From Archaeoglobaceae archaeon (lineage in GTDB: Archaea > Halobacteriota > Archaeoglobi > Archaeoglobales > Archaeoglobaceae): a DNA stretch of 64,000 nucleotides. This document shows positions 25,371 through 36,184 of this stretch, piece after piece. The notes under the pieces are model-generated. The model searched no databases and had not been told where the DNA came from. It was given only the letters and a program-made list of their open reading frames with translations. Both the position numbers and the translations under genes were made by a program. Numbering within the stretch: the stretch's first letter is position 1; each line of letters starts with the position of its first letter. The stretch covers positions 1 through 64,000 of the forward strand of contig JAVYOO010000011.1 in the NCBI GenBank assembly GCA_038734275.1, read 5' to 3'.

Positions 25371-25506
25371 TGGGGTCGGTGGGATTTGAACCCACGACTT
25401 GCGGGTCTCTTCGGGTCAGCGCTCCAATGGGTCATCACCGCTCAGCAGACCCACAATTCATCACACCACTGGAGCCCGCCGCGCTTCCTGACTACGCCAC
25501 GACCCC
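25371..25506 (-). tRNA. tRNA-Trp (CCA) with a 62-base intron
   Basis: On the minus strand GGGGTCG (from 25506) pairs with CGACCCC, followed by discriminator A at 25371. No CCA is encoded. The D arm is GCGT...GCGC, the T arm is GTGGG-TTCAAAT-CCCAC, and the anticodon stem is GCGGG/CCCGC with loop CTCCAG-A, giving anticodon CCA. An intron (25407-25468) interrupts the loop after position 37, the standard archaeal site. The intron carries C/D-box motifs (separate entry). Confidence 0.95.
25407..25468 (-). ncRNA. C/D-box guide RNA embedded in the tRNA-Trp intron
   Basis: Reading the intron 5'-3' on the minus strand there is a C box (GTGATGA), D' box (CTGA), C' box (GTGATGA) and D box (CTGA). The sequence before D (CCATTGGAGCG) pairs with GCTCCAGTGG spanning the anticodon, placing the fifth base opposite C34. 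The sequence before D' (TTGTGGGTCTG) pairs with AGACCCGCAA, placing the fifth base opposite C39. This matches the known euryarchaeal arrangement in which the intron directs 2'-O-methylation of positions 34 and 39. Confidence 0.9.
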
Positions 25507-32284: not shown

Positions 32285-32791
32285 ATGGATCTAAATACAG
32301 AGAAAATTATAAAAGAGAACAATGAAAAAACTCAAGAATTAGAGGCAAAAGTAAGAGAATTGGAGAGAAGGCTCAGATACTACGAAATCAGGGAAATATA
32401 TCAAGGATTGCTTCCTGAGGAACTTCTTCAAAAGTTATTGGAACTTCCACCTGAAATGGTGGTTATAGGCAAGTATTTCAAGGAGAGATCTGCCAAAAGC
32501 ATGAAATCAGAGAAAGCCTCAAAACACATGGAAGATGGTAGGATGCTGCCAGAACCTAAAAGCGTTGAAATGAAATTAAACGGAATCAAGGCAAAAATTG
32601 GGAGTGATCTGAATTTTACACAGAAATACGACTTCAACGGTAGCGTGGCTGAGGGAGACTATGTAATTCAAAAAGAGAGTGGGGCAACTCTCGGAGTTCT
32701 GCCATACTCTAAACCGGGTTTTGTTGTTGTGCCAACTTGGGTGAGAGAAAGGATTAAGGTAAATGATTTTGTGGAGGTGGTGAAGAGATGA
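32285..32791 (+). CDS. Coiled-coil protein of unknown family, partner of the HAMP protein
   Basis: A 168-residue protein I do not recognise. Residues 5-42 form a charged coiled coil (ENNEKTQELEAKVRELERRL), followed by an amphipathic helix (LLPEELLQKLLELPPEMV) and a predicted beta-rich C-terminal domain (residues 95-168). There is no membrane segment. It overlaps the downstream HAMP sensor gene by four bases (ATGA), which implies coupled translation and possibly a complex, with the coiled coil docking on the HAMP coiled coil. The start context GGTGTAGGTATGG recurs at 34029-34038. Confidence 0.65.
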   Translation: MDLNTEKIIKENNEKTQELEAKVRELERRLRYYEIREIYQGLLPEELLQKLLELPPEMVVIGKYFKERSAKSMKSEKASKHMEDGRMLPEPKSVEMKLNGIKAKIGSDLNFTQKYDFNGSVAEGDYVIQKESGATLGVLPYSKPGFVVVPTWVRERIKVNDFVEVVKR

Positions 32792-33786
32792 AGTTAACAC
32801 CCAAAATCGTTATAATAGTTCTGCTTGCGAGCTTTGTGCCCCTTTTACTCCTAGCCCAGCTTACGGTGATGGGTGTTGCGGAATTCGGTGAAAATGCAAG
32901 AACGGGGGTTATAAATGTAAGTCAGGTCTATATTGTTAAGGCGGGAGAAGAAGCAGTAAAAATGAAAACTGATGAACTTTCCAAAAAGTTGGAACTTTAT
33001 TTGAGGAGTAAACTGAGAGAAAATCCCAATTTGACAACAACAGATCTTCTGAAAGATCCTGATTTCTTGGAGATCGCTTCTAGAAGATGGGGAATGGGTG
33101 AATACACTTGGGTTATGGGTGCGGGATTCGTTGGGGGCGAGTGGAGAGTAATAACCTTGGTTTATCCTACACTTTCAAAAGATAAATGGGGAAAGGACAT
33201 CAAGTATGATCTCAAATGGAACGAAAGTATGCCGGATTTCTACAACTTAACTATGAAAGCCGTGGGATATCCCGCGCAGATTATATGTGACTACTATACT
33301 TGGATTGAGCCAGAAACGAACGAGACTGTTGAAAAATACGGATGTTATCAGCAAGTGTTGTTGCCAACGCCGATTTACGATCCTTATATAAAGTCAAGAG
33401 TGGTAATAATGGCGGGCACCGGAGCATACATAGACGGGTATTTCAAGTATCTTACTCAAAGTCCGGGTAATCCCGCTGAGAACATTGCCAGCGAAGTGAC
33501 AAAAAGCATAGAAAAGGCTAAAGAGCAGGTTTACATGAACTTAATTATAGCCTTTGTCGTGGCAGTAGTATTCGTAGGACTCATTGCCTTCTTTACAATC
33601 ACAAGGGTAGCAAAACCAATTGTTGAGTTGAGCAAGACCGCAGACAAAATAAGTGCTGGAGAAGTCGATACCGAGGTTCCATTCAGGAATAAGACTGATG
33701 AGATTGGAATATTGGCGAACAGTATAGAAAGGCTGAAAAGAAGTTTGAAGGTGGCAATGCAGAGCTTAGAAGAAGCTTTAAAGTAA
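32788..33786 (+). CDS. Membrane sensor with extracellular Cache-like domain and terminal HAMP domain, no output domain
   Basis: A 332-residue protein with helix 1 at residues 7-28, an extracytoplasmic domain of about 210 residues (tryptophan-rich, with SRRWGMGEYTWVMGAGFVGG and VYPTLSKDKWGKD, Cache-like in outline), helix 2 near 250-272 (LIIAFVVAVVFVGLIAFFTI) and a HAMP domain (residues 272-325: PIVELSKTADKISAGEVD, NKTDEIGILANSIERLK). It stops there: no methyl-accepting, kinase or cyclase module follows. Signalling probably passes to the coiled-coil partner encoded upstream. Confidence 0.82.
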   Translation: MKLTPKIVIIVLLASFVPLLLLAQLTVMGVAEFGENARTGVINVSQVYIVKAGEEAVKMKTDELSKKLELYLRSKLRENPNLTTTDLLKDPDFLEIASRRWGMGEYTWVMGAGFVGGEWRVITLVYPTLSKDKWGKDIKYDLKWNESMPDFYNLTMKAVGYPAQIICDYYTWIEPETNETVEKYGCYQQVLLPTPIYDPYIKSRVVIMAGTGAYIDGYFKYLTQSPGNPAENIASEVTKSIEKAKEQVYMNLIIAFVVAVVFVGLIAFFTITRVAKPIVELSKTADKISAGEVDTEVPFRNKTDEIGILANSIERLKRSLKVAMQSLEEALK

Positions 33787-34035
33787 TTTTATAATTATTA
33801 TATAATAATTTTATTAATTATTTTCTTAAATTCTTAGGCTGGGTGAATAATATATTTTTGCAGTTTAATAACAGAAAATGGTATGTTAGAACATTTCTAT
33901 CAGTTTTAATAGAGCGAGAGAAAAGTTTAAATCTGGAAGGAAAGAAAGATTTAGACTCTATGTGGGAATGGAAGATAGCAATGTTAAACCATGAGTATCA
34001 TGGAGGTGCAATGATATATTTTCCGGGGTGTAGGT
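33787..34035. other. AT-rich intergenic region after the HAMP gene
   Basis: About 250 bases of very AT-rich sequence. 33787-33835 is almost pure A/T and could terminate the HAMP transcript. The rest has no convincing gene. A 68-codon frame (33843-34049) lacks a good start and family, so I left it out. Confidence 0.5.
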
Positions 34036-34242
34036 ATGGTATCGTATGAATCCCTTCTTCGCGAACTTAAAAAGGAGATTGGTCCAATCGCAAAAATCTT
34101 TTTGGATAAAGCTATGCAATCTCTTGGTATTACAGAAGTGGATGAGGAGAACTACAAAGACGTGCTCGAGGTACTAAAAATGAACAGTTCAATCAGGGAA
34201 TATGTTAATGAAGTCGAAAGAAGAATTGAGAAACTTAGCTAA
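34036..34242 (+). CDS. Small helical protein of unknown function
   Basis: A 68-residue, all-helical, acidic protein (MVSYESLLRELKKEIGPIAK, then LEVLKMNSSIREYVNEVE). I do not recognise the family. GGTGTAG just upstream can serve as ribosome binding site, and the same 13-base start context is used by the gene at 32285. Its 3' end overlaps the convergent DUF2226 gene by eight bases. Its proximity to the HAMP sensor suggests a linked role, but that is inference. Confidence 0.6.
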   Translation: MVSYESLLRELKKEIGPIAKIFLDKAMQSLGITEVDEENYKDVLEVLKMNSSIREYVNEVERRIEKLS

Positions 34243-35122
34243 GTTTTCTCCCTATTTTCTCTTCTATTTCAGAAATCAACGTATTTATCTTTTCTCTTGG
34301 TATAAACATAACGAGTGATCTCAGGCTCTTCTCCAGTTCACTTCTTTTATCCAGAAGTTCTTCATAACTATTGCATGATTCTATAATGCTTACGGCTTTT
34401 TTAGACGGTTTTCCAACTTTTGAAGTAATCAATTCTATAAGTTCCTTCTTGAGTTTATTAAAATCTACGGTGGTTTCTTCCATTCCAAGAGCGTTTGAGA
34501 TCAGAAATTCTATCTCTTCTTCGGCGGGCTTTTTAATACCATATTTCTGTAAAATTTTCTCTCTTTCTTCAGCTACTGTTCTAGAAACTTTAGATACTTC
34601 TTCGATTTCTAAAGCCAGCTCTGAGTTGCCTAACGAATTTTGAATTATTTTTTTGATCTCCTCGTTTTCTGGAGGAGTGATACCATATTTTTCGAGAATT
34701 TGCTCCCGGTCTATTTTTTTTGGACCTTCTTCGATTTTTGGAATTACAGGAGCACTAACTGAGCTCGTGTCTTCTTTTATTTTCTTTTTAATGCCTGCTT
34801 CTTTTATCAGAGCGATCTGATTTAGCTCGAGTGTTTTTTTAACTTGTATGGTATCAAGCGGATATATTTCAACAACTGAGTTATCTAATGTTAAAAGTTC
34901 CGAGAGAGCTGTATCGCCATAGATACTTGACTTACTTCTTATTTTTATAATCTCTGCTGCAGTTATTTTTCCACTGTCAAATAGAACTTCACCAGAGCAA
35001 AGTTCAAGCTTTTTAAAGGCTACTTTGATATAACCACTAAAATTTGAAGCTGAGAGGTTCTCGAGTATCTTTTCGAATTTTCCCTTTTCTATTTTTGCCA
35101 ATGTCGTTTTGGGGAGTATCAT
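34235..35122 (-). CDS. DUF2226/PATAN-like protein with an internal repeat
   Basis: A 295-residue protein. The N-terminal 100 residues (NFSGYIKVAFKKLELCSG, GEVLFDSGKITAAEI) resemble the DUF2226/DUF4388 (PATAN) domain linked to signalling. A 28-residue unit is repeated: REQILEKYGITPPENEEI (from residue 139) and REKILQKYGIKKPAEEEI (from 187). Each is followed by an I..SLG/ALG helix. A helical C-terminus follows. It lies two bases after the Roadblock gene, so the two are cotranscribed and probably interact. Confidence 0.75.
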   Translation of the reverse strand: MILPKTTLAKIEKGKFEKILENLSASNFSGYIKVAFKKLELCSGEVLFDSGKITAAEIIKIRSKSSIYGDTALSELLTLDNSVVEIYPLDTIQVKKTLELNQIALIKEAGIKKKIKEDTSSVSAPVIPKIEEGPKKIDREQILEKYGITPPENEEIKKIIQNSLGNSELALEIEEVSKVSRTVAEEREKILQKYGIKKPAEEEIEFLISNALGMEETTVDFNKLKKELIELITSKVGKPSKKAVSIIESCNSYEELLDKRSELEKSLRSLVMFIPREKINTLISEIEEKIGRKLS

Positions 35123-35124
35123 AA

Positions 35125-35466
35125 TTACACCATCGAAGCCTTCTCAACTGCCTTTTTCATTTCTATCTTCAAAAGCCCATAATTCGTTTTTATGTCTGCC
35201 ACGACCCCCAATATAAAGTTTCCCGCTTTTGAAACCAGTATTCTTTCCTTTTTACCATCGAGTGTGATTAGATCTGGAGTATCAGAGCTAAGTTTCTCGC
35301 AAATCTCTGATGCTTTATTGTATATCTCCACAACTAAAGCGGCGCATATCTCGTCGTCAATCGTCCCCAAAGACTCGGATTCAATTAGAGTCCCTTCAGG
35401 ATCAGCTATATATACTCCCTTGACACCATTAATTCCAAGCAGATCTGCTATTATGTTCTCGAACAT
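35125..35466 (-). CDS. Roadblock/LC7 domain protein
   Basis: A 113-residue Roadblock/LC7 (MglB-like) protein. It has the fold's order of helix, KGVYIADPEGTLIESES strand pair, long helix, and KERILVSKAGNFILGVVAD strands. Such proteins form dimers that act as GTPase regulators or scaffolds in cell polarity and signalling. No Ras-like GTPase gene is adjacent. It is followed by the DUF2226 gene. Confidence 0.82.
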   Translation of the reverse strand: MFENIIADLLGINGVKGVYIADPEGTLIESESLGTIDDEICAALVVEIYNKASEICEKLSSDTPDLITLDGKKERILVSKAGNFILGVVADIKTNYGLLKIEMKKAVEKASMV

Positions 35467-35539: not shown

Positions 35540-36184
35540 TTATAAAAATTTTGAAGCAAAAGTCTCCGGCATGCTTTTACAATCCTTAGCAAAACTGCAA
35601 ACTTTACAGTAGTTCGATTCGTTTTTCTCAGGCAAAAATCCGTTTTTAATCATTTTTAACCTCTCTATTAGTTTCAACGCCTTTCTCCGAATTCCAATGT
35701 TTGCTTCCGCGGTTCTAATCTCTCCGGAGTATGCGTAGTAAACGAGACTTTTATTCATTCTTGTTATCAAAGCTGTTACCCCCGCTTTTATTAGATCTGG
35801 AAACCAAACTCCTTCATTAGGGGCATTTAACGAGACAAAAAGCGGGAATCTATCATCATTGAGCTCAACTATCTCATCAACAGCCAAAGATACTCCAAGT
35901 TCTTCTGAAGTGAAAACAACGTCCCAGTCTACGCTCTTGAGCTCTTCCAAGCTTTTGCTAAGAACAAACTTTTTTAGAGCGGTTTCAAATACGTCCTCAT
36001 TGAACAATTCATTCATCGCTTTAATCCTCTGTTTTGCCCAATCTACTCCGAAACCTCTTCTCAGGCTAAGATAAATCTCTCTCACAGCCTGTTTTTCTGA
36101 AAATCCTCTCTCTCCATAGTGGTATCTGTAATAAGCCAGCCTTGGACATGTAAGATAGCTTGTGATATGGCTTAACTTGATCAC
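35540..36184 (-). CDS. Cas4-like (DUF83/PD-(D/E)XK) protein with an altered active site
   Basis: A 214-residue stand-alone relative of Cas4. The N-terminal ITSYLTCPRLAYY (Cys13) and C-terminal YCKVCSFAKDC (Cys193, 196, 202) give the four-cysteine [4Fe-4S] frame. The motif II acid is present in VDEIVEL (Asp104), but where Cas4 has E-x-K (VEYK) this protein has VSLN at 117-120, so metal-dependent cleavage is unlikely. No CRISPR array or cas gene is in the window. A structural or DNA-binding role is possible. Confidence 0.72.
   Translation of the reverse strand: MIKLSHITSYLTCPRLAYYRYHYGERGFSEKQAVREIYLSLRRGFGVDWAKQRIKAMNELFNEDVFETALKKFVLSKSLEELKSVDWDVVFTSEELGVSLAVDEIVELNDDRFPLFVSLNAPNEGVWFPDLIKAGVTALITRMNKSLVYYAYSGEIRTAEANIGIRRKALKLIERLKMIKNGFLPEKNESNYCKVCSFAKDCKSMPETFASKFL

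Follow-up and report, generated by a model that had tools for sequence, protein, structure and literature searches.

The window analysed here is a 64,000-nucleotide stretch of DNA from an Archaeoglobaceae archaeon (GenBank assembly GCA_038734275.1, contig JAVYOO010000011.1, positions 1 to 64,000), and its genome is 99.46% complete in 12 contigs. The subject of the analysis is a block of five genes at positions 32285 to 35466, which contains an orthologue of the HAMP receptor Af1503 of Archaeoglobus fulgidus and its conserved neighbors, and which may constitute a single signalling unit. All five open reading frames (ORFs) that an earlier note had proposed from the nucleotide sequence were present, with the following coordinates and assignments.

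32285..32791, forward strand: gene 1, equivalent of AF1504, with a predicted N-terminal coiled coil, a variable linker and a putative C-terminal double-psi barrel related to CDC48/VAT-N (counterpart order, profile matches)
32788..33786, forward strand: sensor, Af1503 orthologue, with an ectodomain, two transmembrane (TM) helices, HAMP and a conserved 12-residue tail, without an output domain (PDB matches, PF00672)
34036..34242, forward strand: Af1502/STAC orthologue of 68 amino acids (aa), four-helix-bundle family (PDB 5a1q match)
34235..35122, reverse strand: DUF2226 protein, with a possibly PATAN/DUF4388-like N-terminal domain, two motif copies and C-terminal helices (PF09987)
35125..35466, reverse strand: Roadblock/LC7 protein (PF03259)

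The sensor had been described in the earlier note as Cache-like and as ending exactly after HAMP. No Cache domain was detected by Pfam; the ectodomain instead matches the solved structure of Af1503 (PDB 4CQ4). In a profile search of the PDB the sensor matched 4cq4 over residues 34-332 (E 1.5e-82) and 4gn0 (E 5.4e-29), and by sequence it is the orthologue of Af1503. It is 51% identical to the A. fulgidus protein and resembles it (PDB 4CQ4, 4GN0, 2L7H) over the full length, with an ectodomain, two TM helices, HAMP as the sole cytosolic part and the same C-terminus. The HAMP domain occupies residues 270-320 of 332 (PF00672, 36.7 bits, cut-off 25) and is the only HAMP match in the whole window genome. 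No kinase or other signalling domain of the sort found in two-component kinases and chemoreceptors follows it, in keeping with the description of the sensor as outputless, and the protein ends 12 residues past HAMP. Conservation was highest in this tail (0.88), followed by HAMP (0.76) and the ectodomain (0.67), as calculated from 15 of 17 aligned sensor rows with two paralogues left out. The proposed lack of two-component genes nearby was also borne out, as all five response regulators of the genome are encoded on four other contigs and none on the window contig.

The HAMP domain of Af1503 is the prototype structure of its kind (PMC3585426), and the protein has been described as a receptor without a recognisable effector (PMC4834066). 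The latter study reports a receptor whose cytosolic part is HAMP alone, together with a coupled STAC, encoded in an Af1505-Af1502 operon headed by MgtE, whereas no MgtE lies beside the window gene. A second Af1503-like sensor gene in genome G002 (L136:9338-10354) carries in-frame stop codons, while its STAC gene is still open.

The short helical protein proposed downstream of the sensor corresponds to a real gene, the next one in that direction, and a four-helix bundle is predicted by homology to PDB 5A1Q (5a1q, E 5.7e-24 over residues 1-66). The match identifies the protein, at the level of sequence, as the orthologue of Af1502 (STAC, PDB 5A1Q). Like Af1502 it has 68 residues, inside the range of 60-90 residues expected for the STAC protein genomically coupled to an Af1503-like receptor. 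The GPxA part of the STAC motif LGPx(x)A is kept; the window sequence is IGPIA, where I takes the place of L, and G16, P17 and A19 are invariant. In contrast to the STAC domains of CbrA and CrbS, the window protein stands alone, without an SLC5 or kinase fusion. Furthermore, Af1502 overlaps its sensor gene by 4 nucleotides (nt), while the window STAC gene starts 249 nt past the sensor gene and is therefore not translationally coupled to it. The gap (33787-34035; 293 nt in genome G046) contains a near-identical GAGAGAAAAGTTTAAATCT stretch in both genomes, possibly a promoter for STAC. An ORF at 33843-34049, between the sensor and STAC, was not taken as a gene, and no RNA family was found there.

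Gene 1 is coupled to the sensor as the earlier note had suggested, its stop codon overlapping the sensor ATG by 4 nt, and an overlap of the same length was present in 12 of 12 measured loci. The coiled coil expected at its N-terminus coincides with a long predicted helix (residues 3-38). Heptad scoring supported a coil weakly, the best register having hydrophobic residues at 6 of 11 a/d positions, so the call is based upon the predicted helix together with weak coiled-coil-like matches. In G001, taken as A. fulgidus because its STAC is identical to 5a1q at 68 of 68 residues, a homologue of gene 1 sits between MgtE (PF01769, E 2.2e-36) and the sensor (locus L133), and this position identifies gene 1 as the AF1504 equivalent.

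Sequence profiles point to a CDC48/VAT-N-like double-psi barrel at the C-terminus of the gene 1 family. At a loose limit CDC48_N (PF02359) was matched by 12 of 13 family members (best 2.6e-7), the window copy being the sole exception, and three relatives scanned apart scored 25.7-28.9 bits against a cut-off of 35.1. A profile of the 13 members matched the PDB double-psi barrels 7du7 (E 3.2e-5), 7dvh (1.2e-4) and 7di1 (1.9e-4), whose names all indicate engineered symmetric constructs; for chains with CDC48 or AAA+ ATPase in the name, E was only 0.27-0.36. Outside the block the same profile gave weak matches including six ORFs of 811-1220 aa, lengths that would fit AAA ATPases bearing an N-domain of this kind, and the single weak match in PHROGs was to gene 1. 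Despite the matches of its relatives to CDC48_N and to solved double-psi constructs, the predicted barrel of gene 1 differs from the CDC48/VAT N-domain in being carried on a coiled-coil protein without an AAA ATPase, in staying below the Pfam cut-off, and in the deletion seen in the window copy. According to the alignments, that copy is short of about 14 barrel residues (one predicted strand and a helix) and has small in-frame gaps, with the reading frame still open. Between the window and G046 (NG86), dN was 0.259 for gene 1, 0.162 for DUF2226, 0.151 for STAC, 0.093 for Roadblock and 0.066 for the sensor, dN alone being used, as a rough comparison, because saturation affected many of the dS values. 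The barrel is probably damaged in the window species, where gene 1 is perhaps kept only for translational coupling or for its coil. An AlphaFold model of gene 1, built from five sequences, was poor (pLDDT 55).

Both family assignments made earlier for the convergent half were upheld by Pfam, with PF09987 for the DUF2226 protein (E 9e-36, 124.1 bits, cut-off 22) and PF03259 for the Roadblock/LC7 protein (E 9.4e-14, 51.4 bits, cut-off 23). The latter also matched Roadblock chain 7yh1 (E 1.5e-5), as well as LAMTOR2 and MglB chains, in the PDB. The 3' end of the DUF2226 gene overlaps the STAC gene by 8 nt, and from gene order AF1501 and AF1500 would be the names of the DUF2226 and Roadblock genes, respectively. 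The 28-residue repeat noticed earlier in DUF2226 was recovered as two copies 48 residues apart, identical at 16 of 29 positions. By pattern, its motif (KYGIxxP...EEI...LI) occurs once in most DUF2226 proteins and twice in those of the window, G046 and G047, and the first copy is visible also in the other three sequences of a five-row genus alignment. The AlphaFold2 model of DUF2226 is confident in the N-terminal domain (pLDDT of about 90 over residues 1-100), weak in its middle part and helical at the C-terminus. A fold search with this model returned no match at E <= 0.001 (VIA Z <= 7.1) and is uninformative; no PATAN structure turned up in it, an absence that carries no weight. Of nine DUF2226 proteins scanned, six matched DUF4388 (best E 5.6e-5) and that of the window did not; because these matches stay under the cut-off, the designation PATAN-like is a lead and not a result. 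Of 23 DUF2226 genes, 19 have a Roadblock gene at a distance of no more than 200 nt, which resembles the adjoining genes of bacterial MglB/Roadblock-PATAN pairs; the difference is that DUF2226 is a family of its own, with sub-threshold DUF4388 matches, and that no Ras-like GTPase was found in the window genome with the Ras model PF00071. Stand-alone Roadblock genes were observed in G009 and G011 (L150:9738-10088, L151:2789-3139) next to a cluster that resembles a NiFe-hydrogenase cluster and includes a V4R-like protein.

Profile searches of 55 Archaeoglobaceae genomes matched the sensor in 19, gene 1 in 13 (every time directly upstream of the receptor gene), STAC in 16, DUF2226 in 20 and Roadblock in 34. 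DUF2226 was encoded within 1 kb of the sensor at 13 of 15 main loci, counting one per genome, or at 13 of 18 loci with a complete or nearly complete sensor when three paralogous loci (G013:C35, G002:C3, G009:C41) are included. The other sensor matches left out of the total of 24 were G012 (contig end), the truncated receptor of G021, and four HAMP-only matches in large ORFs (G013:C70, G020, a second match in G001, and G021:C172). The order of coiled-coil gene, sensor and STAC, convergent to DUF2226 and Roadblock, is kept in the window genus and in genus g2, and it persists without STAC in G033 (g10), while g3 (G009, G011) retains sensor, STAC and DUF2226. Four gene contexts surround the block: a Cas4-like gene and a gene that we take to be IleS-like; MgtE; NAD-binding and acyl-CoA dehydrogenase genes; and unique flanks (G033). 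Between genera, 12 of 18 internal junctions were conserved compared with 0 of 12 at the two flanks, the pairs not being independent. The two halves do co-occur in other genomes, so the refuting outcome named in the earlier note, halves that never occur together, was not observed. The convergent block is kept across contexts and genera, which supports the proposal that the halves belong together.

Across the 55 genomes, sensor and DUF2226 were both present in 16, the sensor only in two, DUF2226 only in four, and neither in 33. For this comparison G012 and G021 were scored as sensor-positive and G010, whose gene has two stops, as DUF2226-positive, and a DUF2226-like gene in G021 was scored absent. 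By genus the corresponding counts were 4, 1, 1 and 7 (Fisher p 0.03, uncorrected for kinship); because the genomes are related, this value is not a probability of function. No replacement partner was seen at loci without DUF2226, where the genes convergent to STAC come from unrelated families (AIR synthase-like, RNA 3' cyclase, chorismate lyase-like, DUF166, metallo-beta-lactamase-fold and, in G021, ALAD). In a search of 344 genomes from the phylum, the 16 genomes matched by the STAC profile all belonged to the family, as did 18 of the 20 matched by the sensor profile at E <= 1e-25. DUF2226 was matched in 24, comprising 20 family genomes and four weak others; the DUF2226 profile also matches the control Methanocaldococcus jannaschii.

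The truncated receptor of G021 (L138:6682-7050) is 122 aa long and lacks an ectodomain; it retains HAMP (39.7 bits), the conserved tail and, as judged from its sequence, two TM helices. It sits between the coiled-coil gene and STAC. Divergent from the coiled-coil gene, an orientation unlike all other loci, is a gene for a 188-aa DUF2226-family protein (26 bits, cut-off 22), which was missed by the whole-genome DUF2226 search; hhalign gave it 96% to DUF2226, the next best of 41 ORFs reaching 1.6%. The following gene encodes a Roadblock-sized protein of 104 aa, for which a Roadblock identity was not supported (hhalign 4%, fourth of 41 ORFs). If the assignment is true, G021 represents a cytosolic part kept after loss of the sensor domain.

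Sequence and gene order establish orthology, domain content and conserved clustering of the block, and a functional linkage among its genes is likely. We give an even chance to the reading that the block forms a single signalling unit of Archaeoglobaceae, with a HAMP receptor whose output comes from separate proteins. In such a unit, the Af1503-type membrane receptor would bind something outside the cell, and binding would shift the state of the dimeric HAMP bundle and of the conserved C-terminal tail. As the receptor itself lacks an output domain, output would be supplied in trans by separate proteins, a mechanism with roughly balanced odds. The coupled AF1504-family coiled-coil/double-psi-barrel protein and the STAC four-helix bundle would dock on HAMP and the tail, which we infer to form the docking surface for coiled coil and STAC, and the state would then be passed to a Roadblock-DUF2226 complex, likely the cytosolic effector or scaffold. 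The mutual binding of these proteins, the direction of the signal and its final target are likewise inferred. A relay via separate cytosolic proteins fits the anatomy of the block. In CbrA, a STAC domain docks under an SLC5 transporter, with allosteric coupling suggested (preprint, PMC13022988), and this placement fits a relay role.

A more specific version of this proposal is put forward tentatively, at somewhat less than even odds: the natural output of Af1503 may be a VAT-N-like barrel coiled coil with STAC and a Roadblock-DUF2226 scaffold, constituting a HAMP system without a kinase, a chemotaxis domain or a Ras GTPase, with a conserved cytosolic hub and a sensor domain that can be lost (G021). 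The earlier note was aware of no system described with such a composition. The sensor and mini-protein are, however, the published Af1503/Af1502 (STAC) pair, and the coiled-coil gene belongs to the published Af1505-Af1502 operon; the system is partly described already, since PMC4834066 reports such a receptor with its coupled STAC. For the wider partnership around this known receptor family, no description was found in the literature searched. Within that mostly non-subscription literature no paper was found on DUF2226, or on a double-psi domain together with HAMP, and among the titles listed for the names AF1500, AF1501 and AF1504 only unrelated subjects appeared apart from those on AF1503. 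The conserved neighbors provide a few candidate partners, all of them small and available from a cultivated hyperthermophile. The resulting list extends the published operon by Roadblock and DUF2226, and AF1504 is assigned a domain. If the partners bind, a long-used structural model gains a biological pathway and a test of HAMP output in its native setting.

Several observations weigh against a single unit. The halves are on opposite strands and are therefore not one transcript, and they could share a process without touching. DUF2226-Roadblock occurs without a detected sensor in G006, G047 and G017; sensor-STAC occurs without DUF2226, which was not found, in G054, and the two are on separate contigs in G051. 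At the G009 and G011 loci the coiled-coil gene was not found and Roadblock is elsewhere, STAC was not found in G033, and the eroded barrel may mean that gene 1 is dispensable in the window species.

Regulation of a membrane transporter by the sensor and STAC, with Roadblock-DUF2226 as mere neighbors, is unlikely but is the best surviving alternative. It agrees with the published view of Af1502, which assigns it to solute transport with MgtE/Af1505 in the operon (PMC4834066), and with the docking of the CbrA STAC domain described above. MgtE lies directly upstream in G001, G003, G004 and G007, and a diverged MgtE is found on the far side in G002. Among 15 sequences (the window and 14 loci), however, MgtE was detected at just the four g2 loci searched, and neither in the window nor at the loci of the other genera, while DUF2226 stays at most of them, indicating that DUF2226 is the more constant member and that the transporter varies; neither MgtE nor DUF2226 is adjacent in G051 and G054. 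MgtE, found at loci of one genus only, was rejected as a core member.

Somewhat less probable is that two independent modules are adjacent through inherited order or through the overlap of their convergent 3' ends (a shared terminator or antisense effects), with no shared function. In 10 of 12 loci the STAC and DUF2226 3' ends do share 4-8 nt, and each half is alone in some genomes, yet the block was retained while both flanks were replaced between genera, DUF2226 stays in G033 where STAC was not found, and the divergent order of G021 leaves no shared 3' end. Least probable is that Roadblock-DUF2226 is an MglB/PATAN-like regulator through which the receptor controls the cycling of a small GTPase: bacterial MglB homologues are encoded near PATAN proteins (PMC4316618) and archaeal type IV pilus loci repeatedly contain Roadblock proteins (PMC4858521), but no Ras-family match over the cut-off was found in the window genome with PF00071, the only model tried, and the neighbor genes scanned included no recognisable small GTPase.

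Two further features of the window were observed. An orphan Cas4-like protein (35540-36184, reverse strand; 39.7 bits, Cas4 cut-off 65) adjoins Roadblock and is also there in three relatives of the same genus. A tRNA with an intron at 25371-25506 (reverse strand) was missed by ARAGORN, and its intron holds an sR3-type box C/D RNA at 25414-25468.

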